Positions 9,509 to 38,660 of a stretch of 38,660 bases of DNA are shown piece after piece. Position numbers and translations under genes: made by a program. Numbering within the stretch: the stretch's first letter is position 1; each line of letters opens with the position of its first letter. This stretch comes from Planctomycetota bacterium. GTDB taxonomy: Bacteria > Planctomycetota > Planctomycetia > Pirellulales > UBA1268. The notes beneath the pieces were generated by a model. That model was not told where the DNA came from and searched no databases. It was given only the letters and a program-made list of their open reading frames with translations. The DNA is taken from the NCBI GenBank assembly GCA_027592945.1, contig JAQCJP010000005.1, positions 1-38,660 on the forward strand. Direction: 5' to 3'.

Positions 9509-9698
9509 CTCGCCACCGTTGCTCCTGGCCGCCCTCGACTCGCTTCGGTGGACAAGTCTTGCCGATCCTCCGTCTGGTTGCCAATCGGCGCATGAACGAT
9601 CCGGCGGATCCCGATGCTCGTATAATCGGGAGAAAGCGGCGGTGATCGACGGCACGTCTTTGGAGACCGGGAGGCACCGCTCGTGAGCGAGGCGTGGC

Positions 9699-10916
9699 AT
9701 GCCAGCGGGGCGGGCCGAGATGCTTGCGTGGATCGACCGGCAGCAGGATCGGCTGCTGGAGACGGTCGCGGCCTGGGCGGGAATCAGCTCCTGGAGTCGC
9801 GATCCGGGTGGGATCGAGGCGATGCAAACCGCAGCAGCCCAGGCCTTTGGCTGCCTCGGGCCGGTCAGCCGGATTCCGGCGCGCCCCCGCGAGGAGATCA
9901 CCGACACCGGCGAGGAGCGTTTGGTCGCCGTCGCAGATATCCTGTCGGTGCGGCGGGAGGCTGCCGCAGCTCGCCCCCGGGTTCTGCTTGGCATCCATCT
10001 CGACACGGTTCATCCGCCGGGGCCCGCCTGCCCGCCGGTGGAACTCGCCGAGCATGGCCGCATCCTCCGCGGCCCTGGCGTCGCCGACGCCAAGGGTGGC
10101 CTGGCGGTGATGCTGGTTGCGATCGAGGCCTTCGAGCGGTACGGACCGGCCGACCGGCTCGGCTGGGAGGTCTTCATCAACGCCGACGAAGAGCTTGGCT
10201 CGCCGGGCTCCGGTCCGTTCCTCGCAGAGGCGGCGGCTCGCAACGATCTCGGGCTGCTCTACGAGCCGGCGATCGACGACGCCGGCACGCTGGCCGGGGC
10301 CCGCAAGGGCTCGGGCAACTTCACGATCGTCATCCGCGGCCGGGCGGCTCACGCCGGCCGCCACTTTGCAGACGGCCGCAACGCCCTGACGGTCGCCGCC
10401 CGGCTGGCCCTGGCCTGCGATCGGCTCAACGCCGCCGGCCGCGACCTGACCGTCAACGTCGCGGCCCTCCACGGCGGCGAGGCCTTCAACGTGGTGCCCG
10501 ACCTGGCGGTGCTGCGGGTCAACGTGCGGGCCACCACCGCCGACGACGCCGGTTGGGCAACCAGCCGGCTGCAGGAGGCCGTCACGCAGGCCGATGACAC
10601 CGAGGGCTGCTCGGCCACGCTGCATGGAACCTTTCACTGCCCGCCCAAGCCGCTCGACGCCCTGACGCGGGCCCTGCTCGAGCGGGTGACGGCCGCCGGC
10701 GCGACGCTGGGGCTGGGCATCGAGCAGCAGCCGACCGGCGGGGTCTGCGACGGCAACAAGCTCGCCGCTGCCGGGCTGCCGACGATCGACACGCTCGGGG
10801 TACGGGGAGGCGGCATCCACAGCCCTGCTGAATACCTCGTGGTCGAGAGCCTCGTCGAACGCGCCAAGCTCTCGGCGGTTGTGCTCGCGGAGCTCGCCGC
10901 AAGGGGGCTGCCGTGA
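9699..10916 (+). CDS. M20-family metallohydrolase (ArgE/DapE/CPG2-like)
   Basis: HLDTVH, GPGVADAKGGLAVML, NADEELGSPGS, AHAGRHFADGRNAL and GGVCDGNKLAAAGLPTIDTLGVRGGGIHSPAEY are M20 metal/catalytic motifs. Directly upstream of astA. Confidence 0.85.
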   Translation: MPAGRAEMLAWIDRQQDRLLETVAAWAGISSWSRDPGGIEAMQTAAAQAFGCLGPVSRIPARPREEITDTGEERLVAVADILSVRREAAAARPRVLLGIHLDTVHPPGPACPPVELAEHGRILRGPGVADAKGGLAVMLVAIEAFERYGPADRLGWEVFINADEELGSPGSGPFLAEAAARNDLGLLYEPAIDDAGTLAGARKGSGNFTIVIRGRAAHAGRHFADGRNALTVAARLALACDRLNAAGRDLTVNVAALHGGEAFNVVPDLAVLRVNVRATTADDAGWATSRLQEAVTQADDTEGCSATLHGTFHCPPKPLDALTRALLERVTAAGATLGLGIEQQPTGGVCDGNKLAAAGLPTIDTLGVRGGGIHSPAEYLVVESLVERAKLSAVVLAELAARGLP

Positions 10917-10998
10917 GCGACCCGCGAGCCGCCCGAGGCGGCCCCGATGATAGCCCTGAAAGACCGTTGGCCGACGCAGCCCGACAAGGAGTGACGGA

Positions 10999-12030
10999 AT
11001 GTTCGTGATTCGCCCAGTGCGAGCTGACGACCTCGACGGGCTGGTCGCCCTGGCCGGCCTGACCTCCTTTGGTCTGACCACCCTGCCGCGCGACGCCGAC
11101 TATCTGGCAGGTCGAATCCGTGACTCGGAAGAGGGCTTCCGCCGCCTTGGCGACGAGCGGCCCCGGGGTGAGGCCTATCTGTTCGTCCTGGAAGACACGA
11201 CCAGCGGGCGGCTCGTGGGGACCGCCGGCATCATTTCCAAGGTCGGGGGCTTCGAACCGTTCTATGCCTACCGGATCGAGACCAGCGTGCACGAGTCGAA
11301 GATGCTCGGCATCCGCAAGGAGATCCAGACGCTCCATCTCGAGGCGGAACACGACGGCCCCTGCGAGATCGGCAGCATGTTTCTCCACCCCGACACCCGC
11401 TCCCGCGGAATCGGCCGCGTCCTCTCGCTGTCACGTTTCTTGTTCATTGCCGAGCATCCCTGGAGCTTCGACGAGACGGTGATCGCCGAGATGCGGGGCG
11501 TGATCGACGATTCGGGCCGCAGCGACTTCTGGGACGCGGTTGGCAAGCACTTCTTTGAGATCGACTTCCCCAAAGCCGACTACCTGAGCCTGCTCAACAA
11601 GCGGTTTATCGCCGACCTGATGCCGCACCATCCGATCTACATTCCGCTCCTGCCACCGGCGGCGCAGGCCGTGATCGGCCAGGTCCACCCCGACACGCGG
11701 CCCGCCCTGGCGATTCTCGAAGGCGAGGGCTTTTCGTTCACCGGGATGGTCGACGTTTTCGAGGCCGGGCCGGTCGTCAGCTGCCCCCGCGATGAGCTGC
11801 GGCTCGTCCGCCAGAGCGAGCGGACAGCGGTGGTCGAGCTGAGCGACACGCCTGCCGATGCGGGCGAGTGGATCGTCGGCACCTGCGGGATCAGCTTCCG
11901 GGCCTGCCGGTCACCGCTCGAGCGGCTGGCCGACGGAGGCGTGCGGCTGCCCCGGGAGGCGGCCGCCGCCCTGGGGGTCGAGCCGGGCGACACGATCCGA
12001 ATCGGCCCCCTGCGGAGCAGCAAGCCATGA
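10999..12030 (+). CDS. astA: Arginine N-succinyltransferase
   Basis: MFVIRPVRADDLDGLVALAGLTSFGLTTLP..., FYAYRIETSVHESKMLGIRKEIQTLHLEAEHDGPCEIGSMFLHPDTRSRGIGRVLSLSRFLFIAEHP: strong AstA signature; followed by astD and astB. Confidence 0.92.
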   Translation: MFVIRPVRADDLDGLVALAGLTSFGLTTLPRDADYLAGRIRDSEEGFRRLGDERPRGEAYLFVLEDTTSGRLVGTAGIISKVGGFEPFYAYRIETSVHESKMLGIRKEIQTLHLEAEHDGPCEIGSMFLHPDTRSRGIGRVLSLSRFLFIAEHPWSFDETVIAEMRGVIDDSGRSDFWDAVGKHFFEIDFPKADYLSLLNKRFIADLMPHHPIYIPLLPPAAQAVIGQVHPDTRPALAILEGEGFSFTGMVDVFEAGPVVSCPRDELRLVRQSERTAVVELSDTPADAGEWIVGTCGISFRACRSPLERLADGGVRLPREAAAALGVEPGDTIRIGPLRSSKP

Positions 12031-13526
12031 GCCACGCAGCGACGCCAGCCGCCGCACAGTACATCGCGGGCCGCTGGGTCCGTGGTGGCGGATCACGGTT
12101 CGCCTCGACCAGCCCGGCGACGGGAGAGACGGTCTGGTCTGGCGAGTCGGCCGCCGCGGCGGACGTCGCCGCTGCAGTCGCCGCTGCCCGCGAAGCCCAG
12201 CCCGCCTGGGCTGCCCGCTCGGCCGCCGAACGGATCGCCCTGCTGGAGGCCTGCAGCCGCGAGCTCGAGTCGGGCGGGGCCGAACTGGCGGCGGCCATTT
12301 CGCTGGAAACGGGGAAGCCGCGGTGGGAGGCCACCGGTGAGCTGGCGGCCATGGTCGGCAAGGTGCCGGCCACGATCGCTGCCTGGCAGGCGCGGCAGCA
12401 GGACGAGGTCAGCGGCGAGCCTGGCAGCGGCGGCGATGTCGCGGCCACTCGCTACCGTCCCCACGGCGTCTTGGCCGTCCTCGGCCCGTTCAACTTTCCC
12501 GGCCACATCCCCCACGGCCACATCGTGCCCGCCCTGCTGGCCGGCAATACCGTCGTCTTCAAGCCGAGCGAGCTGGCCCCGCTGGCTGGCCGGCGGATGC
12601 TTGAAAGCTGGGAGCGGGCGGGACTGCCTCCCGGCGTGATCAATCTGGTGCAGGGCGGGCGGGAGACGGGCGAGGCGTTGGCGGCCCACCCCGCGCACGA
12701 CGGGATTCTCTTCACCGGCAGCTATCAGACCGGCGTCGCCCTCCGGCAGATGCTGGTGGCGGAGCCGGGCAAAATGCTGGCCCTGGAACTGGGCGGCAAC
12801 AACCCGCTGGTCGTCCACGACGTGGACGACCTCGATGCCGCCGCCAGCCTCACGATCCTCTCGGCCTATCCCTCCGCCGGCCAGCGATGCACCTGCGCCC
12901 GCCGGCTGATCGTGCCGGAGTCGTCCCGGGGGCAGGCCTTCATCGACCGGCTCACCGCTCGGATCGCCGGGATTCGCGTCGGCCTCCCGGCCGATGAGCC
13001 GGAGCCCTTTATGGGGCCGGTGATTCACAAGGCGGCCGCCCGTCAGCTGCTTGAAGCCCAGGCCGATCTGCTGGCCCGGGGCGGCGTCGCCCTGCGGGCG
13101 ATGGAACAGCAACGGGGCATCGCCACGCTCCTCTCACCGGGGCTGATCGACGTGACCGACGTGGCCCACCGGCATGACGCCGAGTGGTTCGGCCCGCTGC
13201 TCCAGCTCGTTCGGGTGCCCGACTTCGAGGCCGCGATCGCCGAGGCCAATGCCACCACCTACGGCCTGGCCGCCGCCCTGCTGAGCGACAGCCGCCCGCT
13301 CTGGGAGCATTTCCGCCGCGACGTGCGGGCGGGGGTGGTCAACTGGAACCGGCAGACGACCGGCGCCTCGGGACGGCTCCCCTTTGGCGGCGTCGGCCAC
13401 AGCGGGAATCATCGCCCCAGCGGCTTCTTCGCGATCGACTACTGCGGCTATCCGGTCGCCTCGCTCGAACGGGAGCGGGTCGGGCCACCGCCTCTGCCCC
13501 CGGGCTTGGGCGCGGAAGCCGGCTGA
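12027..13526 (+). CDS. astD: Succinylglutamate-semialdehyde dehydrogenase
   Basis: ALDH fold: RPHGVLAVLGPFNFPGHIPHGHIVPALLAGNTVVFKPSELAP, LALELGGNNPLVV, SAGQRCTCARRLIV. ATGA overlap with the astA stop. Confidence 0.92.
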   Translation: MSHAATPAAAQYIAGRWVRGGGSRFASTSPATGETVWSGESAAAADVAAAVAAAREAQPAWAARSAAERIALLEACSRELESGGAELAAAISLETGKPRWEATGELAAMVGKVPATIAAWQARQQDEVSGEPGSGGDVAATRYRPHGVLAVLGPFNFPGHIPHGHIVPALLAGNTVVFKPSELAPLAGRRMLESWERAGLPPGVINLVQGGRETGEALAAHPAHDGILFTGSYQTGVALRQMLVAEPGKMLALELGGNNPLVVHDVDDLDAAASLTILSAYPSAGQRCTCARRLIVPESSRGQAFIDRLTARIAGIRVGLPADEPEPFMGPVIHKAAARQLLEAQADLLARGGVALRAMEQQRGIATLLSPGLIDVTDVAHRHDAEWFGPLLQLVRVPDFEAAIAEANATTYGLAAALLSDSRPLWEHFRRDVRAGVVNWNRQTTGASGRLPFGGVGHSGNHRPSGFFAIDYCGYPVASLERERVGPPPLPPGLGAEAG

Positions 13527-13539
13527 ACGAGATTGACCA

Positions 13540-14877
13540 ATGCAGGCGATGGAACTCAACCTCGATGGCCTCGTCGGCCCGACCCATCACTACGGCGGGC
13601 TGGGCCTGGGCAATCTCGCCTCGCAGCGGCACCGCCACCAAGTCTCGAATCCGCGGGCGGCAGCCCTCGAAGGGCTTGCCAAGATGCGGCTGCTCGTGTC
13701 GCTGGGCCTTCCACAGGCGGTCCTCCCGCCGCAGGAACGGCCGCTCATCCCGGCGCTCCGGCGGCTTGGCTTTGCCGGTGGCGACCGGGCGGTCGTGGCG
13801 GCCGCCGCCCGCACGGCTCCCGGCCTCCTCTCGGCAGCCACCAGCAGCTCAGCGATGTGGGCGGCCAACGCGGCGACCGTCTCCCCCGCTGCCGACACTG
13901 CCGACGGCCGTCTCCATCTCACCCCGGCGAATCTCGTCAGCCAGTTTCATCGCTCGCTCGAGCCGCCGGGCACCGCCGCCGCCCTGGCCCGGATCTTTCC
14001 GGCGACCGATCGGGTCACGATCCATCAGCCGCTGCCGGCCAGCTGCGAACTGGCCGACGAAGGGGCGGCCAATCATCTGCGGATCTGCCGGACCCATGGC
14101 GAGCCTGGCCTCGAGGTCTTCGTGTATGGCCGCGACACCATCGGCACCCCCGGCGGCCGGCACCCGGCCCGCCAATCGCTGGCCGCGTCGCAGTCAGTCG
14201 CCCGGCTGCACGGCCTCGCGGCCGCCCGCACGCTCTTCCTCCGGCAGCACCCCGCCGCGATCGAGGCGGGCGTGTTTCACAACGACGTGATCGCGGTGGC
14301 AAACGAGCATCTGCTCTTGGCCCACGAGCGGGCCTGGGCCGAAGGCCCGGCGGCTGCCGCGGCGATCCGCGAGGCTTTTGCCAACGGCTGCGGCGGGGAC
14401 CTCGTGTTGATCGAGGTGAGCGAGCGGGAGCTCACCCTGGCCGACGCCGTCTCGACCTACTTGTTCAACAGCCAACTGGTCACGCTCCCCGCCGGCGGAA
14501 TGGCATTGATCTGCCCGGCGGAGTGTCGCCAGCACGAGGCCACCAGCCGCTGGCTCGACGGCCTGCTCGCCGCCGACAATTCCGTGGTGGCCGTGCATCC
14601 GGTGGAGGTGCGGCAGAGCATGCAAAACGGCGGCGGGCCGGCCTGCCTGCGGCTGCGGGTGGTGCTCAGCAAAGCAGACCTGGCAGCTGTGCATCCGGGG
14701 GTCGTGGCGACGCCGAGGCTCCTCGATGTGCTCGAGGCCTGGGTGCGGCGGCACTACCGCGACCGGCTGACGGTCGAGGATCTCGCCGATCCGGCGTTGC
14801 TCGACGAGGTCTCTCAGGCACTCGACGAACTCACCGGGCTGCTCGACCTGCCAACGCTGTATCCGTTTCAGCGGTGA
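13540..14877 (+). CDS. astB: N-succinylarginine dihydrolase
   Basis: LDGLVGPTHHYGGLGLGNLASQRHRHQVSNPRAAALEGLAKMRLL..., SMQNGGGPACLRLRVVLS: characteristic AstB. Confidence 0.93.
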   Translation: MQAMELNLDGLVGPTHHYGGLGLGNLASQRHRHQVSNPRAAALEGLAKMRLLVSLGLPQAVLPPQERPLIPALRRLGFAGGDRAVVAAAARTAPGLLSAATSSSAMWAANAATVSPAADTADGRLHLTPANLVSQFHRSLEPPGTAAALARIFPATDRVTIHQPLPASCELADEGAANHLRICRTHGEPGLEVFVYGRDTIGTPGGRHPARQSLAASQSVARLHGLAAARTLFLRQHPAAIEAGVFHNDVIAVANEHLLLAHERAWAEGPAAAAAIREAFANGCGGDLVLIEVSERELTLADAVSTYLFNSQLVTLPAGGMALICPAECRQHEATSRWLDGLLAADNSVVAVHPVEVRQSMQNGGGPACLRLRVVLSKADLAAVHPGVVATPRLLDVLEAWVRRHYRDRLTVEDLADPALLDEVSQALDELTGLLDLPTLYPFQR

Positions 14878-14912
14878 GCGGAGCACGGCCGCAGGGGCGA
14901 AGTCCCGGGGGT

Positions 14913-15026
14913 TGGGCGAGAGTGAACGTGGATTGGGCGGGTTGGTGGTGAACGCGGGTTGGCAATCGAGAGTTGGGCGGCCCAATGTCCCGCCGTTCCC
15001 CCGGCTCGCGCCGGGGGGCTTTGATG
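14913..15026 (+). repeat. Copy A of a dispersed hairpin repeat family
   Basis: ATTGGGCGGGTTGGTGGTGAAC...AGTTGGGCGGCCCAA...CCCCCGGCTCGCGCCGGGGGGCTT; inner palindromes TTGGGC-G-GCCCAA (14973-14985) and CCCCCGG-ctcgcg-CCGGGGG (14998-15017). Matches copies at 16389-16540 and 18531-18662. Confidence 0.85.
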
Positions 15027-15106
15027 GAAAAGGGGACTGGCTCCGAGCGAAGCGAGGTTTCTGCCCCCTTGTCCAGCACGAGGACGCACGGAATACGGGT
15101 TCGCGA

Positions 15107-15238
15107 GGGGTGAGCCCGTGCCAATCGAGCGGCGTAGAAATCCGAGCGGAGTCAGGATGACGAAGCGAGGAGTTCTCCGAGCGAGCGGAGGGCAGGATGC
15201 CCACAGCGAGCGTCCGCAAGATGGCACGGGCTCACCCC
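15107..15238. repeat. Structured element bounded by a 16-bp perfect inverted repeat with two REP-like sub-hairpins
   Basis: GGGGTGAGCCCGTGCC (15107-15122) and GGCACGGGCTCACCCC (15223-15238); interior has two related units GCGGAG-TCAGGATGA-CGAAGCGAG and GCGGAG-GGCAGGATGCC-CACAGCGAGC. Confidence 0.75.
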
Positions 15239-15258
15239 GAGCCCGCGAAATGATTGCA

Positions 15259-16353
15259 TCAGGCTGGCTGTGCTCGTCGAGGGCGGCGGATGACGGGGAC
15301 AAGCAGTCCGGCGGCGGCGAGCATCAAAGCGACCGTGCCCGGCTCGGGGACGACCGAGAGCGAGTAGAGATCCTGGGAGAGGCCGCCGCCGTCGTCGGAA
15401 ATCAACAGCAGGCTCGTCGAGCCGTCGGCCAGCGGCGGGCCGTAGGTCATGCCCTCGAAGTTGGAACTTCCGAAGGAGCCCTCCCAGAGGAGCGTCTTGG
15501 CCAGAGGCGTGAAACCGCCAGCGTCGATCGTCGGTAGCGCGGAGACGTCGCTGGCCGCGAGCAGATCAACCCCGTAAAGCCGGGAGCGAAACGTCGGCAC
15601 GACCGCGCCGCCAAGTTCCCGCTCGAGCACGAGCAGCGTCGTCGCCGACCAGGGGAGGACATCGACCACCCCGCTCCGCTCGGCCGAGATGAAGGGATTG
15701 AGGGCGGAGATCGGGTCGGTGCGGTAGGCCCATTGGCCTGCCGGCGTGAGCGTCTCGGCAAACCGTTGAATCCGCACCCACGTGCCAGCGGTGGTCGTGG
15801 AGAGCGGGCCGTCGGGCACCAGAGCCTCCTCGTTGGCGGTCCAGAGGCCGCCGGGGCCGTAGGCGAGCGACTCGAGGCCCATGTTGCTCTGCACGTTGGC
15901 CGATGCGTAGATCGCCGGCACACTCACCCCGCCGAGCGTGCCGCCGGTCACGGCGTCGAACTGCGTGATCGTCGAGGCGACCTCATCGGCCACGAACACG
16001 GTCCCGGTGCCGGCTCGATAAGCGATTCCCTCGGAATCACTGCCGAGGCCCGGGGCGGCAAGCGAGCCGGTCACCGCAGCCGACGAGATAAAGCCTGTCG
16101 CCGGGTCGACCGCGATTCCCACGGTCCAGAGCGACCCCGCCCCGTTGTCGCCAACCGCGAGGTAGTCGCTGCCACCGGTCCAGGTCAGGCCGCTGAGTTC
16201 GGCAGCGGCGGTGCTGCCGGAGGAGAGGGCGACGACGCCCTGGCCGGGGTCGATCACCGCGGGCAGCGCGGCCGCCACCGGCCGGCCACTACCCCAAAGG
16301 CACGCGACCGCCCCGACCACGCGGCACACGATCAGCAGCCGAACCGCTCGCAT
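15259..16353 (-). CDS. PEP-CTERM protein with esterase-like/phytase-like (PF13449-type) beta-propeller domain
   Basis: ELSGLTWTGGSDYLAVGDNGAGSLW..., DSEGIAYRAGTGTVFVADE, GLESLAYGPGGLWTANEEALVPDGP, NFEGMTYGPPLADGSTSLLLISDDGG; C-term VVPEPGTVALMLAAAGLLVPVIRRPRR. Start at MRAVRLLIVCRVVGAVACLWG. Confidence 0.82.
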   Translation of the reverse strand: MRAVRLLIVCRVVGAVACLWGSGRPVAAALPAVIDPGQGVVALSSGSTAAAELSGLTWTGGSDYLAVGDNGAGSLWTVGIAVDPATGFISSAAVTGSLAAPGLGSDSEGIAYRAGTGTVFVADEVASTITQFDAVTGGTLGGVSVPAIYASANVQSNMGLESLAYGPGGLWTANEEALVPDGPLSTTTAGTWVRIQRFAETLTPAGQWAYRTDPISALNPFISAERSGVVDVLPWSATTLLVLERELGGAVVPTFRSRLYGVDLLAASDVSALPTIDAGGFTPLAKTLLWEGSFGSSNFEGMTYGPPLADGSTSLLLISDDGGGLSQDLYSLSVVPEPGTVALMLAAAGLLVPVIRRPRRAQPA

Positions 16354-16388
16354 CACCACACCTCCACCTCCAAAGTCTACCACCTCCA

Positions 16389-16540
16389 TGGAAGCCCCTC
16401 GGCGCGAGCCGGGGGGACGGCGGGCCGTTGGGCCGCCCAACTCCCGATTGCCACCCAGCCTCCATCACCAACCCGCCCAATCCGAGTTCACAACCAAGCC
16501 ATCCCCGACACTTCGCCAGCCGACGGCGGGCCGTTGGGTT
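16389..16540 (-). repeat. Copy B of the dispersed hairpin repeat family
   Basis: Reverse complement aligns with copy A across ATTGGGCGGGTTGGTGATG...TTGGGCGGCCCAACGGCCCGCCGTCCCCCCGGCTCGCGCCG; also has a 17-bp direct repeat GACGGCGGGCCGTTGGG at 16416-16432 and 16522-16538. Confidence 0.85.
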
Positions 16541-16727
16541 TTCCCATGCGGGTTGTCCGCCGGGGCCGGCGGTGACGTGCTCGTGCGCCGGGGGATTTTG
16601 CTACAGGGTGCTCGTCCGGCCGAATGAACGTCGCTGCTGAGGCGCAAAGATTCCCCGGCTTCTGCGCGTGCCTCCGACCGCCCCCTCCCCCTAGAAACCC
16701 CTCAACGCGAGCCCGTACCATCTCGCC

Positions 16728-28629: not shown

Positions 28630-30420
28630 CTAAGGGCTGGGATTGGCGGACTCGGGAATCGTAGCGGCCCGTGGCTCGGCCGCGAAGGCGGCCGGCTCGG
28701 TGAGCACGAACAAATGGCCATGGTCGCTGGTCACGATCACCGCCGCGTCATCCCAGGCGTCGTGCCGTTCGATCCAGTCGACCACTGTTTGAAAGGCGGC
28801 GTCGCCGCTCCGCACCGCCCCGATCGCGGTGTCGATGTTGTTGGCATGGGAGCCCCAGTCGACATCTCCGGCCTCGACGAGCAGCCAGAACCGCCCCCGG
28901 CCGCCGAGCACCTCGAGGGCCGCCGCGGTCATCTCGGCGAGGGTCGGGCTCTCCTCGATCTCGGCCTCGCTGTAGTGGATGTGCGAGCCATATTTTTTAC
29001 GGAGCCGATCCTCGTCGGGGCCGCCCTCCGGCTCGGGGTTGCAGTTGCCGGGATCGAAGTCGCCGTTGGTCGTCTGAAACGGCAGGTTGCCCTGGGGGGT
29101 GCCAAAAAAGCCGAACAGCCGCACGCCCCGCTCGGCAGCCTCGGCGGCCGCGGCCTTCAGCAACTCGCCGCCCTTGCGGCCCGCCGTCCGCTCCGCCACG
29201 AGATACCGGCCGCCGGCGGCCGCATCGATCGCCGCCCGCGTCGAGCCGGCCAGGTATTTGTTGCCCGGCTCGTAGTTGCGGCCCTGCTGGGCCGAGTCGT
29301 CGTCGGCCGTCACGCCGAAGCCGGCCCCGATCACGACATCGAGGCCCGGCAGCGGCGCGGCGTGGCTCACGGAGGGCTCCCCGAGCAGGTCGCGGGCGAT
29401 GTCCTGATAGTCGTCGCGGGTGACGTTGTTGGCATACGCGGCCCCCGGCGTCGCATGGCAGATCGGCACGCTCGTCACCACGCCGGCGGCGTAGCCCTGC
29501 TGCTGGAGCCGGCGGGCCACCGACTCCAGGGGCCGGCCGGCGGCATCGACGCCGATCGCGTCGTTGTAGGTTTTGCAGCCGACGAACAGCGACGTCGCCG
29601 AGGCCGCCGAGTCGGTGACGGCATGGGGAAGGTCGCGGTCGCGGCCAATCAGATAGGAGAGATTGGGCCGCGACTCCCAGGCCGTGCTGCCACCGCGGGC
29701 GGGATCGTAACCGCCCGGCGTATTGCCACCCGGGTTCTTGACCGCCTGAGCATCGGGATCGACCTCGGTGCCGGCGTTTGCCGGGCTGGTCACGCAGAGG
29801 CCGTAGTCGGTGGGGCAGCCGCGATAATCCTGGAAGGCAAGGCCGCTGCCCCGGCCCTCGGCGTAGGCGACGCGGCCGGTGGTCGCGATCGCCGCCGTCC
29901 GCGTCGTCACCCAGTCGAGGCCGTCGAACACGACCACCACGATGTACTTCTTCCCCGCCTCGGCCGCGGCAAGTTGCAGTTCGGCGATGTCGGTTTGGTC
30001 GAAGTAGTCGGCCGCGGGGTTGAGCGTCTCCTCGGGCAGGCGGCCATAGAGTTCCCGGAGCCGGGCCTCATCGCGATAGACGCTCCGCTCGCCGGCGACC
30101 GCCTTGAGATCGATGCCGAAGGTGTAGACCGGAATCAGCCGATTCGAGTGGTTCGACCAGGCGACATACCGATCCGGCTGATCGCCCCAGTGGCCCCAGG
30201 GAGCGGTGCCGGTTAGTTCCGCCTCGCACTGCAGGATCCGCACCGGGTCGAAGGGGTCGGTCGCGGCCGGTGGCCCGGCGGGGCTCTCCTGGCTGGCCGG
30301 TGCTCCAGGGGGAGCGGCAGCGGGCTGGACAGCAGCAGCACATCCGCCCGCGGCGACGACAGCCGCCAGGAGGGAGACGGGCCAGGGCTGCAATCGGCAT
30401 CGTGCGAGAGGGTCGATCAT
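28630..30420 (-). CDS. Alkaline phosphatase (PhoA superfamily), probable lipoprotein
   Basis: Start MIDPLARCRLQPWPVSLLAAVVAAGGCAAA (lipobox-like AGGC); KYIVVVVFDGLDWVTTRTAAI, DSAASATSLFVGCKTYNDAIGVD, RFWLLVEAGDVDWGSHANNIDTAIGAV, AAVIVTSDHGH. Confidence 0.85.
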   Translation of the reverse strand: MIDPLARCRLQPWPVSLLAAVVAAGGCAAAVQPAAAPPGAPASQESPAGPPAATDPFDPVRILQCEAELTGTAPWGHWGDQPDRYVAWSNHSNRLIPVYTFGIDLKAVAGERSVYRDEARLRELYGRLPEETLNPAADYFDQTDIAELQLAAAEAGKKYIVVVVFDGLDWVTTRTAAIATTGRVAYAEGRGSGLAFQDYRGCPTDYGLCVTSPANAGTEVDPDAQAVKNPGGNTPGGYDPARGGSTAWESRPNLSYLIGRDRDLPHAVTDSAASATSLFVGCKTYNDAIGVDAAGRPLESVARRLQQQGYAAGVVTSVPICHATPGAAYANNVTRDDYQDIARDLLGEPSVSHAAPLPGLDVVIGAGFGVTADDDSAQQGRNYEPGNKYLAGSTRAAIDAAAGGRYLVAERTAGRKGGELLKAAAAEAAERGVRLFGFFGTPQGNLPFQTTNGDFDPGNCNPEPEGGPDEDRLRKKYGSHIHYSEAEIEESPTLAEMTAAALEVLGGRGRFWLLVEAGDVDWGSHANNIDTAIGAVRSGDAAFQTVVDWIERHDAWDDAAVIVTSDHGHLFVLTEPAAFAAEPRAATIPESANPSP

Positions 30421-30552
30421 CGTGGCCGACAGCATACTGGAGGGCCCGCAGGGTGGCGAAGAACGGCCAGGCCGCTGTACCGCGCGTGAGGGCGAACCGC
30501 TCCCGCTCACGACCCGCTTGCCACGAAACAGGCGGGCCACCAGGCCTGAGAC

Positions 30553-32859
30553 TCAGGCCGACCGCGACGGCCGAAACCATCGGCCAGCGCGGGTGGTGAG
30601 AAGAGCCGGCAGCACGACGAGGTCGCCCGCGAGTGCCGCGCAGACCAGCAGCGACAGCATCCAGGCGAAATGCCGAGTTGGGGCAAACGGGCTGGGCGCA
30701 AAGGCGAGGATGCCGATGCCACACACGAGCGATGACTGCACGAGCGGCCCCGCGGCGTGCTCAAAAGCAGCATGCACGGCCGCGATCCGATCCGGCCGCC
30801 CTTCAGCGGACGGCTTGTCTCGAAGGGAATGCCTGAAGAACGTCAGGAAGTGAAACGTACCGTCGACAGCCATGCCAAGAGCCACCGATGCCGTCATGAC
30901 GCTGCCGATGTCGAGCGCCGCGTGCGTCCAGCCGAGGAGTCCAAAGAGCAGAAGGATCGGAAACATGTTGGGCACCATGGCGATCATCCCGGCCAGCACG
31001 CCTCGCTCCACAGCCATCGTCACCAGTGAGATCACGCCGCACGCGGAGAGAAAACTCACGAAAAGGTCGCGGAGGAGCGTTCTCTGGATCGCGTCGATGA
31101 GTGGCATGGCCCCTGTGTAGTTGACCGTGATGCCGCGGCCGGCGCCGCCATGAAGCGTCACAATCGGCTCCACGACCTGACGAACGGTTTCAAGAAAGTC
31201 ACCGAAGTCGAGGCCTGCGAGTGCCGAGGTTCGCGCCGTCACCCGCCAGAGCTGCTCTCCCTCCTGCTGACGGATGAGGTGCATGTCCGTGAGGCGTGCG
31301 AGGGCCGCCTCCAGCCGTCTGGCTACCACTACTTTCCGGACGGCCGTCACCGCTGGAGATGAGTCGGGCAACTCGGGGAGAAGCAAGGCGGCAGATGCCA
31401 CGCCCTTCACAGGCTGCAGCGTTTCGAGTGCCTCGCCAATCTCCCTCGCGATATCGAGCCGCTCGGCCGGCCGCGCCTCCGTGTCGGCGGCATACCGCAC
31501 CACCACCTCGACCGGCACGAGCGGGCCAATCTCATGCTCGAGCCAGGCGTAGTCGCGGATCACGCGGCTCGAAGGTGTGAACAACGTGTCGATGCCCACG
31601 GAGGTGCGGATGCCCGGAATCCCCAAGGCCGCCACTGCCAAGGCTGCCACCGCCGCCGGCACGATCAGCCCCGCCCACCGCGTTACCCAGCCCGCCACAG
31701 GCGCAGCCGGTGTGCGACGTGAACTGCCGGCGACCCGCTGCCGGATCGGCCAGCGGGCGAAGATGCCCGGCAGCACAAGAAACAGCACCACAACCGTTCC
31801 CAGCACGCCGATGGCAGCGTGGAATCCAAACACGCGAATCGGCTCGAGATCGCTCATCACGAGGGACGCGAGGCCAAGCGCTGTCGTGCCTGCCGAAAGG
31901 CTGCAAGGCAGCCAGGCCACCTTCACGGCCCGCCACGCCGCCCCTCGGGCAGGCCCTTGCTGATAGGCGTCCACGAGATAATTCACGAGATGGATGCCCC
32001 CGGCGACACCGAGTGTCAGTACGAGCAGGGGCATCACGATGAGCACGGGGTTCATCCGGTCGCCCCAGGCCGCAAGCGATGCAAACGAGAGCCCCACGCA
32101 CCCGAGCGACAGGACAAACACCACCATGGCATAGCGAAACGAGCGCAGGGCAAGCCAGGTGAGGGCGAACACGAGCACGGCGGCGGGCCCGCCATACACC
32201 CGAAGGCTCTCATCGCTGGCGGCATCCACGGTGACATTGTCGATCACCGGTCCGGCCAGGTGAATCGCGTCGGGGTCGGGTTCCGCCATGTGGAGAAGCA
32301 CATTCCGAATCCATGCCACGGCACGCAGCCGATCAGCCAGTCCAGCCGGTGTGAAACCGATGATCAGGCAGGTGCGGCTGCCATCGGGGCCCACGAGGAC
32401 TCCCTTGAGCCGTTCGATGGCCGTCTCGAGATCGAGCGCAAGCGGCGGCATGGTGAGCCTGTCGAGCGCCTGCTGCCCCGTGGTGACCGATTCAAACCAG
32501 GGCTCGCCGCCGGCATTGCAGGGCGCCGACGTCCCAGTGGCCGCGTCGATGACGCGAGCGATGGCAGGTTCGCCCAGTCTGCACCCCGGCCACGAGGCGA
32601 CCACCACGTCGCCGCTCTCAAACTCGCTTGTGAACCGTGCATACGCCTGTCGTGCCGGGAAAGAAGCTGGCACCCACTCAATAGGCGTGGTTGACTGCGC
32701 GCCCAGCGTGGCAAGGGCAGCCAGCACCACCCAGGGCAGTGGCACCATCAACACCATGAGGGATGTGAGACTCACGCGAAAGAGCCTCGCCGCTGAGGCA
32801 TCGGCCCAGAAACGCCTCTGCGACACGGTCTGACCACCATGCTTTGACGAAGAAGGCAT
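30553..32859 (-). CDS. RND/MMPL-superfamily exporter
   Basis: 768 aa with two TM bundles: ALRSFRYAMVVFVLSLGCVGLSFASLAAWGDRMNPVLIVMPLLVLTLGVAGGIHLVNYLVDAYQQ and LAGMIAMVPNMFPILLLFGLLGWTHAALDIGSVMTASVALGMAVDGTFHFLTFFR. Confidence 0.85.
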   Translation of the reverse strand: MPSSSKHGGQTVSQRRFWADASAARLFRVSLTSLMVLMVPLPWVVLAALATLGAQSTTPIEWVPASFPARQAYARFTSEFESGDVVVASWPGCRLGEPAIARVIDAATGTSAPCNAGGEPWFESVTTGQQALDRLTMPPLALDLETAIERLKGVLVGPDGSRTCLIIGFTPAGLADRLRAVAWIRNVLLHMAEPDPDAIHLAGPVIDNVTVDAASDESLRVYGGPAAVLVFALTWLALRSFRYAMVVFVLSLGCVGLSFASLAAWGDRMNPVLIVMPLLVLTLGVAGGIHLVNYLVDAYQQGPARGAAWRAVKVAWLPCSLSAGTTALGLASLVMSDLEPIRVFGFHAAIGVLGTVVVLFLVLPGIFARWPIRQRVAGSSRRTPAAPVAGWVTRWAGLIVPAAVAALAVAALGIPGIRTSVGIDTLFTPSSRVIRDYAWLEHEIGPLVPVEVVVRYAADTEARPAERLDIAREIGEALETLQPVKGVASAALLLPELPDSSPAVTAVRKVVVARRLEAALARLTDMHLIRQQEGEQLWRVTARTSALAGLDFGDFLETVRQVVEPIVTLHGGAGRGITVNYTGAMPLIDAIQRTLLRDLFVSFLSACGVISLVTMAVERGVLAGMIAMVPNMFPILLLFGLLGWTHAALDIGSVMTASVALGMAVDGTFHFLTFFRHSLRDKPSAEGRPDRIAAVHAAFEHAAGPLVQSSLVCGIGILAFAPSPFAPTRHFAWMLSLLVCAALAGDLVVLPALLTTRAGRWFRPSRSA

Positions 32860-33136
32860 CCTTGGCCCTGCGTGAAAGATCCGACTTTTTCTAACCGCAG
32901 GCCTTCTCAGCTACGACCCCTTGGCGTAATTCTCGTCGACGGGCATTGCAAGAAGGATGATTGTCATGTTGAGCGTCCACTCGGGCTCGCGTCGAGAGTG
33001 GATCATGGCCGACTGCCGGCTTCTGATGTCCACGCACCGCCCCCCCTTTTCGCAACGGTGAGGAATCCGCACTATTCTCCTTACCAAGCGGTTCGGCGGC
33101 CTCCGGAGCGTCCACACGATCCTGCCGCTCGATCCA

Positions 33137-34660
33137 TTGCTGCCCGCGCCCGCGGAATCGGGAAAGGTCACGTCGTTGTCCGTTCTGATTCGACATCTCA
33201 TCGCTCTTGGCTACGGCATCGTGTGCCACGCGATGTTCTTTGCCGGCATCACGACGATGATCGCAATGATGTACTTCGGCATGAGCCGGAGCGGGGGGAG
33301 GCTGTCGCCGCCGTGGAGCCTGCTGGCCAACGGCATGCTGCTCGCCCAGTTCGCAGTCCTGCACTCCTTCCTGCTGTCCAAAGGCGGCCGCACGGTGCTC
33401 GCCCGCCTCGCGCCCGCCGGGTTCGGCCGCGATCTGGCGTCGACGACGTACGTCGCCATCGCGTCCACCCAGACCCTGTTGTTGTTTGCGGGCTGGTCGC
33501 CCTCGGGGATTGTCTGGTGGCAGGCGAAGGGAGCGGCGCTGGTCGTCCTCACGGCGCTCTATGCGGCGTCGTGGCTCTTGCTCGGCAAGGCCATGATGGA
33601 CGCCGGGCTCGCGCTGCAAGCAGGCTGGCTCGGCTGGCTCGCGGTGTTTCGGGGCACGAAGCCGGTCTACCCGCCGATGCCCGAGTCGGGGCTGTTTCGC
33701 ATCGTCAGGCAGCCGATTTACGTCGCCTTCGCGCTCACCCTGTGGACGGTGCCGACCTGGACGCCCGACCAACTCGCCGTGGCGGTCTCGCTCACGGCCT
33801 ATTGCGTGGCCGGACCGCTCCTGAAAGAGTCACGGTTCGCCGACATCCACGGCGAACGGTTTGCGCGATACCAGGCGCGTGTCCCCTTCTGGCTGCCGTG
33901 GCCGCGGCCGGCCGCTCCGTCGCGAGATCGATCAAGGCGAAATGACATGCGCGACGAGGTGACGATCTACAGCACGTATGCGCGGAACTGGTGGGATGGA
34001 TCGCAGAGATTCCTCCGCCTCCTGCAGAACATCGTGCCGGCGAGAATGCGGCATTTCACGCAGGTCGTCGGGGCTTGGAACGGCAAGAGCGTGCTCGAAG
34101 TCGGCTGTGGCGGCGGGTTCATGGCGGAGGCGTTGGCCCGCGCGGGCGCCGACGTCATCGGCGTGGATCCATCCGGTCCGGCGGTGCTGGCCGCCCGCGA
34201 GCATGCGCGGCTCGAAAACCTCCCCATCGACTACCACGTCGGCGTTGGCGAGCGCATTCCCCTTCCGGACGAGGCCGTCGACTGCGTGGTCTGCGTGGAC
34301 GTGCTGGAGCACGTCGAAAACGTCGATCTAGTGCTGGGCGAGATCACTCGCGTGCTCAAGCCGGGGGGATTGTTTCTCTTTGACACGATCAATCGCACCC
34401 TCCTCGCCAAGGTCGTCATCGTCGGGCTCGGTGAATCGGTGCTCCGCCTGCTGCCCCGCGGGACACACGATCCCGCGAAGTTCATCACGCCGGCGGAGCT
34501 TTCCCGGAAGCTCGTCGATCGTGGCTACGAGGTGGGGCCGATCGTTGGCCTTGCGCCAGTGGGCATCGGCTGGCGGCTCGACTTCACGTTCGGCCGGTTT
34601 CCCTCCACGCAGATCATGTACATGGGGCACGCCCGCAAAGCTCGCTCGCCGCTGCGATGA
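33137..34660 (+). CDS. Fusion: N-terminal ICMT/MddA-like membrane methyltransferase + C-terminal UbiG-like SAM-dependent O-methyltransferase
   Basis: No stop between domains. N-term: IALGYGIVCHAMFFAGITTMIAMMYFG...GLFRIVRQPIYVAFALTLWTVPTWTPDQL...ERFARYQARVPFWLPW. C-term: NWWDGSQRFLRLLQNIVPARM...VLEVGCGGGFMAEALARAGADVIGVDPS...LFLFDTINRTLLAKVVIVGLGESVLRLLPRGTHDPAKFITPAEL. The start codon is non-ATG (TTG 33137 or 33176). Confidence 0.78.
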   Translation: MLPAPAESGKVTSLSVLIRHLIALGYGIVCHAMFFAGITTMIAMMYFGMSRSGGRLSPPWSLLANGMLLAQFAVLHSFLLSKGGRTVLARLAPAGFGRDLASTTYVAIASTQTLLLFAGWSPSGIVWWQAKGAALVVLTALYAASWLLLGKAMMDAGLALQAGWLGWLAVFRGTKPVYPPMPESGLFRIVRQPIYVAFALTLWTVPTWTPDQLAVAVSLTAYCVAGPLLKESRFADIHGERFARYQARVPFWLPWPRPAAPSRDRSRRNDMRDEVTIYSTYARNWWDGSQRFLRLLQNIVPARMRHFTQVVGAWNGKSVLEVGCGGGFMAEALARAGADVIGVDPSGPAVLAAREHARLENLPIDYHVGVGERIPLPDEAVDCVVCVDVLEHVENVDLVLGEITRVLKPGGLFLFDTINRTLLAKVVIVGLGESVLRLLPRGTHDPAKFITPAELSRKLVDRGYEVGPIVGLAPVGIGWRLDFTFGRFPSTQIMYMGHARKARSPLR

Positions 34661-34705
34661 CCGATCACAGGAACTCTCGCGTCTGTGGAGGCTCGCTGAA
34701 GTACC

Positions 34706-35941
34706 ATGACGCTTCCAGCGTCGATCCAGCTTCTTTTTCGGAATTTGAAGATGCAGCCCCAGGCCACGGTCCCCGACGCGATTTCCATCACCGATGCCGG
34801 CCGTGACCTGTGGGATGTCGTGGTGGTGGGGGCCGGATTGTCGGGATCCGTCGCGGCCCGGGAGGCGGCACGGCTCGGGAGCAGGGTGTTGCTCGTCGAG
34901 AAGGCGAGTTTTCCGCGTCGCAAAGTCTGCGGCTGTTTTCTCAATGCCAACGCCCTGGCCAGCCTCGCGCACCTGGGACTGGACTCCCTGATCGCCGCCA
35001 GCCGGGCCCCTGCGGTCCGGGGCGTGTTTATGGCCGCGGGCCGGCGGCACGCCTATCTTCCGCTTCCCACGGGAGCCGCCCTGTCGCGGCACTGGCTGGA
35101 TGCTGAACTTGCGCGCGAGGCAACCGCCGCGGGCGCATCGCTGCTGCTGCGGACGGAAGCTCACCTGATCGGCGTGGACGACGACCGGTGCCGCTTGCGT
35201 CTGACTCGCGATGGCGAAGAGATCGAGATCGTGTCGCGCGTCATCGTGGCTGCCGATGGGCTCGCCGGACGGCTGGCGCGGCAGACTCCGGGCTGCACCC
35301 ACTCGGTGAATCCCCGTTCCCGCATCGGGGTGTCGGCGACGACGTCGCTCGTGCCGGAGGGATACCAGGCGGGCACGATCCAGATTGTTGTGGGCCGCGA
35401 GGGCTACATCGGCGGGCTGCAGGTGGAAAATGGAAATCTGGAGCTCGCTGCGGCGCTCGAACCGGCGGCGGTGAAACGCTGGGGCCCGGGCGAAACGGTG
35501 CAACGGATTCTCCACCAGTCTCCCCTGCCGAAATTCGAGGCGGTTCGCGACCTCAACTGGCAGGGCACGACGCTGCTGTCGTGCCGCACGTCGCCACCGG
35601 CCGTTCACCGCATCTTTTTCGTGGGCGACGCCGCCGGCTACATCGAGCCCTTTACGGGGGAGGGCATGGCCTGGGCCCTGGCCTCGGGGGCCGCTGTTTC
35701 GGGAATCGCTCATCAGGCCGCCCGGCACTACTCCGCCGATCTGCCCCGACGCTGGATCGCCGAGCGCGGGCGACTGCTGCGAGGTAGAATGCGGCTCTGT
35801 CGCCTCGTGACGCAGAGTCTGCGCTACCAACGTCTCACGGAGTTGAACGTGACCCTGCTGGGCCGGCTGCCCTTCCTGGCGACTCCCGTGATTCGCTGGC
35901 TCAATCGTCCACGTCCAATCACGTCCGGGCCGCGGCGATAG
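34706..35941 (+). CDS. FAD-dependent oxidoreductase, geranylgeranyl reductase/SrsC-like family
   Basis: VVVVGAGLSGSVAAREAARLGSRVLLVEKASFPRRKVCGCFLN (FAD Rossmann), VIVAADGLAGRLARQ, IFFVGDAAGYIEPFTGEGMAWALASG. Confidence 0.87.
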   Translation: MTLPASIQLLFRNLKMQPQATVPDAISITDAGRDLWDVVVVGAGLSGSVAAREAARLGSRVLLVEKASFPRRKVCGCFLNANALASLAHLGLDSLIAASRAPAVRGVFMAAGRRHAYLPLPTGAALSRHWLDAELAREATAAGASLLLRTEAHLIGVDDDRCRLRLTRDGEEIEIVSRVIVAADGLAGRLARQTPGCTHSVNPRSRIGVSATTSLVPEGYQAGTIQIVVGREGYIGGLQVENGNLELAAALEPAAVKRWGPGETVQRILHQSPLPKFEAVRDLNWQGTTLLSCRTSPPAVHRIFFVGDAAGYIEPFTGEGMAWALASGAAVSGIAHQAARHYSADLPRRWIAERGRLLRGRMRLCRLVTQSLRYQRLTELNVTLLGRLPFLATPVIRWLNRPRPITSGPRR

Positions 35942-35974
35942 CTGTTCGGCGTCTTCTCCTTCCCCAACATCCCG

Positions 35975-36769
35975 GTGAGCCTCATCCCCGTGTCGAAGTT
36001 GCCATCCGAACAGACGGACTACCTTCGCGTTCCCGAGGCCAAGCGCGACTACAACGAAATCCTGTTTGCCGAGGTGGCACGCCGCTACGACCTGGTGACA
36101 CGGGCGCTCTCGCTCGGTCGCGACCAGGCCTGGAAGCGTGCGCTGCTCGACTCGTTGCCTGACGGGGAAGCGGCGCCACACGGTGGCTCTCCGGTCTGCG
36201 TCGATCTCGCCTGCGGTACGGGAGATGTCGCGTTCGCCCTGGCCCGTCGGTATCCCCGAGGCACGGTGTGCGGGGTCGATCTCACGCCGGAAATGCTCGC
36301 GATCGCCCGGGCAAAGAACCAGTTCCCCAACGCGTCGCTGGAGCTGGGCGATATGCATCGGCTGTCGTTCCCGGTCGACGGCGTCGACATCGTCACGGGG
36401 AGCTACGCCCTGCGAAACGCCCCCTCGCTACCAGTCGCCCTGCAGGAAATCCATCGCGTGCTGCGTCCCGGAGGCACGGCGGCCTTCCTCGACTTCTCGA
36501 AATCCCCCAACTGGCTGTGGCAGCGGCTGGCACACGCCGTGCTCTACGTCTGGGGCGGGTTCTGGGGACTCGTGCTCCATGGTCAGCCGGCCGTGTATGC
36601 CTACATCGCCAAGTCGCTTTGGCACTTTCCCGATCGCGTCGCGCTGCGAGAGGAGTTGGCGCGAGTCGGTTTTGTGGAGGTGTCGAGCCGGCAGTTCTAT
36701 TTCGGCACGCTGGAGTTGATCGCGGTCGTCAAGCCACTCGACGAGCCGGAGCGGGCTGACGGTGAATGA
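35975..36769 (+). CDS. UbiE/MenG-like class I SAM methyltransferase (GTG start)
   Basis: FAEVARRYDLVTRALSLGRDQAWKRALLDSLP, VDLACGTGDVAFALARRYP, GVDLTPEMLAIARAK, YALRNAPSLPVALQEIHRVLRPGGTAAFLDFSKS: UbiE signatures. Confidence 0.86.
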   Translation: MSLIPVSKLPSEQTDYLRVPEAKRDYNEILFAEVARRYDLVTRALSLGRDQAWKRALLDSLPDGEAAPHGGSPVCVDLACGTGDVAFALARRYPRGTVCGVDLTPEMLAIARAKNQFPNASLELGDMHRLSFPVDGVDIVTGSYALRNAPSLPVALQEIHRVLRPGGTAAFLDFSKSPNWLWQRLAHAVLYVWGGFWGLVLHGQPAVYAYIAKSLWHFPDRVALREELARVGFVEVSSRQFYFGTLELIAVVKPLDEPERADGE

Positions 36770-36825
36770 TTTCTCCCGCCGCGCCTCGGAAGCCGAATTG
36801 ATGGATCACCGGAGTTGCCTGATGG

Positions 36826-37038
36826 TCAGCCATCCACCGGGCGGCGACGAGCAGCGATGCCGCGATCATTTTGCTCGACGGCCGCCACGAAGTCGACCTT
36901 GTCGCGCACGCCGCAGTCGGGACACGCCCAGTCGTCCGGCACCTCGCCCCACGGCGTTCCCGGCGGGAACCCCTCGCGCGGATGCCCCTGCTCCTCGTCG
37001 TAGACGTAGCCGCACCCCGGGCAGCGCCAGCGACTCAC
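36826..37038 (-). CDS. Rubredoxin (AlkG/RubA-like)
   Basis: RWRCPGCGYVYDEEQGHPREGFPPGTPWGEVPDDWACPDCGVRDKVDF: two CxxC knuckles. GTG start at 37038; downstream of alkB. Confidence 0.9.
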   Translation of the reverse strand: MSRWRCPGCGYVYDEEQGHPREGFPPGTPWGEVPDDWACPDCGVRDKVDFVAAVEQNDRGIAARRRPVDG

Positions 37039-37106
37039 GAGCGGCCCCACCCCTTCCGGTGCGCTTTATGGACCCCGCAGATCCCTAAGCCGCGCCGGAA
37101 GCTCAT
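37035..37106 (-). CDS. 23-codon mini-ORF bridging alkB and rubredoxin (coding status uncertain)
   Basis: MSFRRGLGICGVHKAHRKGWGRS*; its ATG overlaps the alkB stop (ATGA) and its stop overlaps the rubredoxin GTG start (GTGA). Confidence 0.3.
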   Translation of the reverse strand: MSFRRGLGICGVHKAHRKGWGRS

Positions 37107-38293
37107 GCTGCACCTCCGTAGCGGGCGAGGATGCGCTTGCGGGCGCTGGGTTGGATGTTGGCGCGGCTGGCGTCGCCACCGTAGTGCTCGATCAGACGGT
37201 GGTCCATTACCCGGCGCCAGAGCGGCGGGATCCAGGCAAGGACGATCATCCCGGCGTAGCCGGTGGGCAGCTGCGGCGCTTCTTCGACGTGGCGCAGGGC
37301 CTGGTAGCGGCGGGTCGGGTTGGCGTGGTGGTCGGAGTGCCGCTGGAGGTGGTAGAGCAGCACATTGGAGGCGATGCTGTTGCTGTTCCAGCTGTGCTCG
37401 GCGCGGCAGCGCTCGTAGCGGCCGTCCTCCTGTTTCTGACGCAGGAGCCCGTAGTGCTCCAGGTAGTTGACGACCTCGAGCAGCGAGAAGCCGAGCACCG
37501 CCTGGATCAGCAGATAGGGCAGGACGACCGGGCCGAAGCCGATCGCCAGGGCCGCGAAGAGCACGACGGTCATCGTCCAGGCGCCGACGAGGTCGTTGTG
37601 GAGGCTCCAGTGCGACTTACCGAGCCGGTCGAGGCGGGTGCACTCGATCCCCCAGGCCGAACTGAGACTGCCGGCGACGGTGCGAGGCAGGAAGGCCCAG
37701 AAGCTCTCGCCCAGCCGCGAGCTGGCCGGGTCCTCGGGGGTCGCGACGCGCACGTGGTGGCCGCGATTGTGCTCAATGTAGAAGTGCCCGTAGCCGGTCT
37801 GGGCGAGGGCGACGCGGCTCAGCCACTTCTCCAGGCTGTCGCGCTTGTGGCCGAGCTCGTGCGCAGCGTTGATCGCGATGCCGCCGACAACGCCCATGGT
37901 CAGCGCCAGGCCGATGCCCTCCAGCCCGCTCAGGTCGCCGCTCGACCAGAGCCAGCAGGCGAAGACGAGGCCGGCGTACTGGACCGGGATGAAGAGGTAC
38001 GTACACCAGCGGTAGTAGCGGTCCTGCTCCAGCCACTTAAGGATGCTGTCAGGCGGGTTGGAGGGATCGACCCCGATCGCGATGTCAAGGAGCGGGAGGA
38101 CGCCGAAGACGAACAGCGGGCCGACGAACCAGAAGCCCTCGAAGCCGGTAACCGCGACACTCGCCCAGGCGATGAACGGCGCGAAGGGAATGATCAGCCC
38201 GAGCAGCCAGGCGTAGCGCTTGCTGTCCTTCCAGGTCGCCGCGTTGAGCTCTACCACCGGCTCCTGATCGTGGCTATCCGCCACTGCGTCCAT
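37103..38293 (-). CDS. alkB: Alkane 1-monooxygenase (AlkB-type membrane diiron hydroxylase)
   Basis: His boxes NAAHELGHK, EHNRGHHVRVATPEDPASSRLGESFW, NYLEHYGLLR and LQRHSDHHANPTRRYQ, all in canonical order. Confidence 0.94.
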   Translation of the reverse strand: MDAVADSHDQEPVVELNAATWKDSKRYAWLLGLIIPFAPFIAWASVAVTGFEGFWFVGPLFVFGVLPLLDIAIGVDPSNPPDSILKWLEQDRYYRWCTYLFIPVQYAGLVFACWLWSSGDLSGLEGIGLALTMGVVGGIAINAAHELGHKRDSLEKWLSRVALAQTGYGHFYIEHNRGHHVRVATPEDPASSRLGESFWAFLPRTVAGSLSSAWGIECTRLDRLGKSHWSLHNDLVGAWTMTVVLFAALAIGFGPVVLPYLLIQAVLGFSLLEVVNYLEHYGLLRQKQEDGRYERCRAEHSWNSNSIASNVLLYHLQRHSDHHANPTRRYQALRHVEEAPQLPTGYAGMIVLAWIPPLWRRVMDHRLIEHYGGDASRANIQPSARKRILARYGGAA

Positions 38294-38339
38294 TCAATTC
38301 CTCCTCGGCAGACTCCCGGGAATTGTAACACTCGCTTTC

Positions 38340-38353
38340 AAGTTTGTGAACTT
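38340..38353. promoter_or_regulatory. Short palindrome in the alkB upstream region, candidate operator
   Basis: AAGTT-TGTG-AACTT, 47 bp upstream of the alkB start in a locally AT-richer stretch. Confidence 0.3.
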
Positions 38354-38474
38354 TGTCAACCGGCGCAACAGGGCAGAGCAGTTTGTCGGCGACCATTCCG
38401 CTCCTCCTTCCGAAACCCTCGTTCTTTAGGGCAAAGGACAGCGGAGCGGGGTTTTTGGGGGCTGGCTACCCTGC

Positions 38475-38660
38475 GTGACCGTGTGCACGCTGCTTGGAAT
38501 CCTGCAGGTGATCATCTCGGGGGTGCTGATCTTTCTGATCCGCCTGCACTCCGGGAAAGACACCGGGCTGTCCGGCACCCTCGGCATCGGCGGGGGCGGC
38601 GGTCACGCCACGGAAGGCTGCTGCGACGCGAATCAAAAGCCCCGCTCGCACGCCACGTCA
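38475..38660 (+). CDS. Partial SecG-like ORF running off the window edge
   Basis: GTG start; VTVCTLLGILQVIISGVLIFLIRLHSGKDTGLSGTLGIGGGGGHATEGCC...; the LxHSGKxxGLS motif is typical of SecG. Sequence after the Gly run is atypical. Confidence 0.5.
   Translation, partial: MTVCTLLGILQVIISGVLIFLIRLHSGKDTGLSGTLGIGGGGGHATEGCCDANQKPRSHATS

Follow-up and report, generated by a model that had tools for sequence, protein, structure and literature searches.

A planctomycetal tailoring locus with a HidB-family flavoprotein: a putatively split variant of the hierridin-like phenolic-lipid pathway

Hid-type operons, in which genes for a HidA-like methyltransferase, a flavoprotein oxidoreductase (HidB) and a type III polyketide synthase (PKS; HidC) follow one another, are the closest known systems found for the locus described here. 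This layout is present at 58 of 96 planctomycetal type III PKS genes (mtr-fdo-t3pks; PMC10896814) and is shared by the cyanobacterial hierridins, as in hidABC of Cyanobium (PMC8086630). When the methyltransferase/oxidoreductase pair of Gimesia maris was co-expressed, a single methylation resulted that was probably C-linked (PMC10896814).

The window, by which we mean the whole stretch of 38,660 nucleotides analyzed, is contig C125 of the draft MAG G000 (3.56 Mb, 326 contigs, approximately 95% complete). An MMPL-family transporter gene is divergent from three closely spaced ORFs on the opposite strand (Table 1), the first of which fuses an ICMT/MddA-like and a UbiG-like domain in a single open frame (33137-34660, +, 507 aa). 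The spacers within this run are 45 bp and then 33 bp, so that it looks like one operon. ORF and profile checks bore out the preliminary description in its account of the genes and their divergent arrangement, and also in its statement that a synthase is missing: no match to a type III PKS, an ACP or a ketosynthase was obtained within the window. Remnants of HidC, or of the P2/ACP/ketosynthase genes introduced below, were likewise sought there and not found, and an Rfam scan of the window returned no RNA family.

Table 1. Features of the tailoring locus (window coordinates) and the evidence for each assignment.
Feature	Position	Strand	Evidence
MMPL/RND-family transporter, candidate exporter	30553-32859	-	768 aa; Pfam MMPL PF03176, 1e-14
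ICMT/MddA-like membrane methyltransferase domain	33137-33931	+	residues 1-265 of 507-aa ORF; NF045656 87 bits (cut-off 270)
UbiG-like O-methyltransferase domain	33932-34660	+	residues 266-507 of same ORF; TIGR01983 149.7 bits (cut-off 102.95; assigns subfamily, not substrate)
HidB-family flavoprotein	34706-35941	+	411 aa; GG-reductase superfamily TIGR02032 124 bits (cut-off 158.8); tree, neighbourhoods, AlphaFold/Foldseek
UbiE-like methyltransferase, type-III-PKS-linked clade	35975-36769	+	264 aa; 158 bits (equivalog cut-off 216); tree

The locus, including the fused ORF, is reproduced in a second, independent assembly (L146, JAQBZA010000093.1, matching window positions 28967-38660) that is 99.86% identical over 9694 bp. 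L146 sits in a MAG (G207) that is otherwise of a different species. At the other loci compared, G207 shares only about 66-81% DNA identity with G000 and was therefore rejected as a conspecific genome; L146 most plausibly stems from a G000-like genome and was mis-binned. Relative to the related genome G157, differences in the four domains fall mostly at the third codon position (0.15/0.08/0.41 differences per site by codon position for the flavoprotein gene and 0.16/0.06/0.40 for the UbiE-like gene), indicating that these are real genes under purifying selection. Beyond the run, 37103-38293 (-) encodes a membrane protein of the fatty-acid-desaturase family (Pfam PF00487) whose histidine motifs resemble those of AlkB-type alkane hydroxylases; it is split into two ORFs in L146 and is not kept beside the cassette in relatives. 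This gene and an alkaline phosphatase gene were both rejected as cluster members because the relatives' loci hold no homologue of either.

With the window flavoprotein as query, a scan of approximately 85,000 species genomes yielded six near relatives and 74 loci at 32-44% identity. These 74 loci were found only through that flavoprotein identity, and a HidA-like methyltransferase is encoded at 73 of them and a type III PKS at 66; a Synechococcus hid operon is among them. Phylogenetically, the window-type flavoproteins constitute one clade (100/100) nested inside the HidB family (98/82 node) and branch nearer to HidBs from other families than to the HidBs found in their own. The tree has only two outgroup rows, both very long, and its root is therefore weak, such that the assignment leans on neighbourhoods as well as on tree topology. 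On this evidence the flavoprotein is a HidB-family member, of a lineage different from the native HidB, and groups with neither archaeol nor menaquinone enzymes. It scores below the cut-off for the geranylgeranyl (GG)-reductase family, and its AlphaFold model (pLDDT 89) finds flavin halogenases and aromatic hydroxylases as best Foldseek matches, with a GG-reductase at rank 40. The hid-type phylogeny and neighbourhoods, together with this ranking, favour a ring oxidase or hydroxylase over a prenyl reductase, and the protein is likely to act on an aromatic ring.

Among the methyltransferases of the cassette, the ICMT-like domain falls below the cut-off for MddA methanethiol S-methyltransferases and is 63% identical to a stand-alone gene in G157, in which the two domains fused in the window are separate genes. 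The UbiG-like domain passes TIGR01983, a match that assigns a methyltransferase subfamily and not a substrate, and has orthologues (63-72%) in relatives' loci bearing a PKS, an MMPL gene or the flavoprotein/UbiE pair. The UbiE-like enzyme, which lies under its equivalog cut-off, is separated at 99% from housekeeping UbiE in the tree and belongs to a clade that holds homologues adjoining type III PKS genes in a distant planctomycete family. Both G157 and G165 have a window-type UbiE plus a housekeeping UbiE; a housekeeping-clade UbiE/MenG was not found in the G000 draft, nor in several further draft genomes from the family.

Neighbourhood comparison found the flavoprotein and UbiE-like genes conserved together in five other species. 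In all six species that have a window-type flavoprotein (the G000 species included) its gene adjoins a UbiE-like gene, while the same locus contains UbiG in five of the six and a type III PKS in three. These three loci (L148, L149, L150) each link a type III PKS and a ketosynthase to the cassette. L148 and L150 (the latter from G165) carry a divergent type III PKS, here called P2, whose catalytic Cys, His and Asn are conserved, together with genes for an ACP and a FabF-like ketosynthase and a further ICMT-like gene; the flavoprotein frame of L148 is interrupted, on a draft contig. L149 has a type III PKS different from P2, plus a ketosynthase. Its full cassette (9001-16718) lies in a record labelled as a cyanobacterium with a GC content of 58%, which may reflect transfer or mis-binning. 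In the genome of L151, P2, ACP and ketosynthase genes are found on a separate short contig. The cluster of type III PKS, ACP and FabF-like ketosynthase recurs more widely (L150 5257-6516, 4881-5246 and 3523-4881; also L129, L148 and L284); Pfam sees only the C-terminal chalcone-synthase domain of its PKS, and UbiG- and ICMT-like genes adjoin it. No description of this cluster, or of the window-type clusters of relatives, was found in the literature searched. G165 additionally has a HidA-like gene beside an MMPL gene, with neither HidB nor HidC there.

The synthase had been supposed to be encoded elsewhere in the genome, and so it proved: a PF00195 profile search of G000 recovered one type III PKS above cut-off, on contig C22. 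It is of HidC type, keeps the catalytic Cys-His-Asn in alignment, and is preceded by a HidA-like methyltransferase in a hidABC-like operon. C22 matches the window in GC content and carries a hemL-like gene that has no close second copy in G000, which makes it unlikely to be a contaminant contig. A candidate second PKS on C89 was discarded as an ordinary FabH-like fragment.

Between HidA and HidC on C22, HidB persists only as pseudogene pieces matching residues 14-32, approximately 199-262 and 347-386 of a 390-aa HidB. HidB of G157 is reduced to about 23 C-terminal residues. Among the genomes examined, G000 and G157 are the only two that combine HidC with a window-type flavoprotein, and the HidC tree indicates that their HidB losses were separate events, a comparison that depends, for the sister G154, on a HidB whose gene extends past the end of its contig. 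Other assessable HidC genomes of the family keep HidB, whole or cut by a contig edge, with apparent breaks in the draft assemblies G155 and G178. That both losses occurred in HidC genomes with a window-type flavoprotein is the main evidence for functional replacement, and replacement of the native HidB by the window flavoprotein is the best reading of these sequences; the pattern comprises two events in draft genomes and was noticed after the fact. As counter-cases, some operons lack HidB in genomes with no window-type cassette, among them those of G205 and of Stieleria maiorica (PMC10896814).

The exporter role proposed in the preliminary description fared less evenly. The MMPL gene is present as claimed, but it is tied to the pathway less firmly than the other genes are, since its own subclade is not PKS-linked elsewhere. 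Next to the hid operons of G150, G163, G168, G183, G201 and G190 lie MMPL relatives, 52-66% identical within the family and about 40% beyond it, and G000 has a second MMPL copy at C116. In L178 (labelled "bacterium") and L219 (Planctomycetota), HidA, HidB and a methyltransferase are followed by an MMPL gene and a PKS on the other strand, an arrangement that supports an exporter role in hid-type loci. Export of the pathway product by the window MMPL protein is plausible.

Taken together, we consider it somewhat better than an even prospect that a type III PKS phenolic-lipid pathway is divided between two loci, with tailoring and possibly export encoded in the window and the other half on C22. 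The HidC-type synthase would make a 5-alkylresorcinol, to be methylated by the HidA-like enzyme; the window flavoprotein would then oxidize or hydroxylate the ring, standing in for the decayed native HidB. Further methyl groups would be added by the UbiE-like enzyme, probably to carbon, and by the UbiG/ICMT-like enzymes, probably to oxygen, giving a polymethylated alkyl-hydroquinone or methoxy-resorcinol for which the MMPL protein may serve as exporter. A common substrate for the two loci is inferred, as are the order of steps, their chemistry and export. The two loci lie on different contigs of a draft MAG, and the C22 synthase could instead feed an unrelated or decaying pathway. A broader history can be offered tentatively, as a possibility short of an expectation: the cassette of HidB-family oxidase and UbiE-/UbiG-like enzymes would have evolved with the PKS-ACP-ketosynthase cluster, been re-wired, in two or more lineages, to the HidC pathway already present there and let the native HidB decay. 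The products would be polymethylated alkyl-benzoquinones, similar to ubiquinone or plastoquinone but with a straight alkyl tail.

The main rival to a pathway shared with C22 is that the cassette serves an ancestral synthase of the P2 type, accompanied by a dedicated ACP and ketosynthase as seen in G165 and L148, that these genes are absent only through incompleteness of the MAG, and that the C22 hid operon is separate or dying. The ties of P2, ACP and ketosynthase to the cassette in L148 and L150, their occurrence on a short contig in the L151 genome and the estimated completeness of G000 all lend it some weight. However, a search for a P2 homologue in G000 found none, and G157 contains only a truncated P2 N-terminus (C39, L320 5042-5200; residues 5-70, 47% identity) without ACP or ketosynthase neighbours, indicating that the synthase was lost there; HidB decay at the hid operon would, moreover, have to be a coincidence. 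We regard this explanation as rather unlikely. A cassette orphaned by the loss of its synthase and heading for decay would accord with the lack of a linked synthase in the window or in G157, and with the HidB and P2 remnants as signs of ongoing turnover, but is improbable given that the ORFs are all intact in two species and show strong third-position bias.

Slightly less probable again is a role for the methyltransferases in the metabolism of the respiratory quinone (menaquinone), which would make this a housekeeping or host-quinone modification locus. Similarity to UbiE and UbiG profiles and the missing housekeeping-clade UbiE of the G000 draft point in that direction; the coexistence of both UbiE types in G157 and G165 disfavours it, as do the separation of the two clades and the sub-threshold equivalog score, and the host-derived quinone suggested earlier as an alternative finds no support. 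It is very improbable that the flavoprotein is a true geranylgeranyl or prenyl reductase and that the locus makes an isoprenoid lipid. Its best NCBIfam profile is indeed that of the GG-reductase superfamily and its best PDB sequence match an archaeal digeranylgeranylglycerophospholipid reductase, but the profile score stays below the family cut-off, tree and neighbourhoods are hid-type, and aromatic hydroxylases and halogenases outrank the GG-reductase in the Foldseek search.

The seeming displacement of a native HidB by a HidB of another lineage, together with extra methyltransferases, amounts to a natural complementation experiment. It bears on what the flavoprotein does in the alkylresorcinol operons of planctomycetes (PMC10896814) and predicts a more decorated product. 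A split tailoring locus of this kind would be missed by mining only around the synthase. The genomes of relatives also point to an apparently undescribed cluster of type III PKS, ACP and ketosynthase.

In srsABC of Streptomyces griseus, a PKS, a methyltransferase and a flavoprotein are combined for phenolic lipids, with the PKS inside the operon. The locus described here shares that concept and differs in having no PKS in the window operon; the preliminary description had drawn its comparison with srsABC and bpsAB, but the closest known systems found are of hid type. With the clusters of L148, L149 and L150, the window shares flavoprotein, UbiE and UbiG genes related at 63-78% identity. Unlike the window, those clusters include a linked type III PKS and ketosynthase (and an ACP in L148 and L150), and the window ICMT domain is of another type and fused to UbiG. 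As in hidABC and mtr-fdo-t3pks (PMC10896814; PMC8086630), a HidB-family flavoprotein occurs with a HidA-like methyltransferase and a HidC-type PKS in the same genome, and the type III PKS product is expected to be methylated and oxidized. In contrast to those operons, G000 places the flavoprotein gene apart, among genes for UbiE-, UbiG- and ICMT-like enzymes and an MMPL protein, and the native HidB is a pseudogene; the contiguous methyltransferase-oxidoreductase-PKS order is thus found neither in the window, which has no HidA-type methyltransferase or PKS, nor on C22, where HidB is broken. The system is best described as a variant of the known hierridin-like phenolic-lipid pathway.
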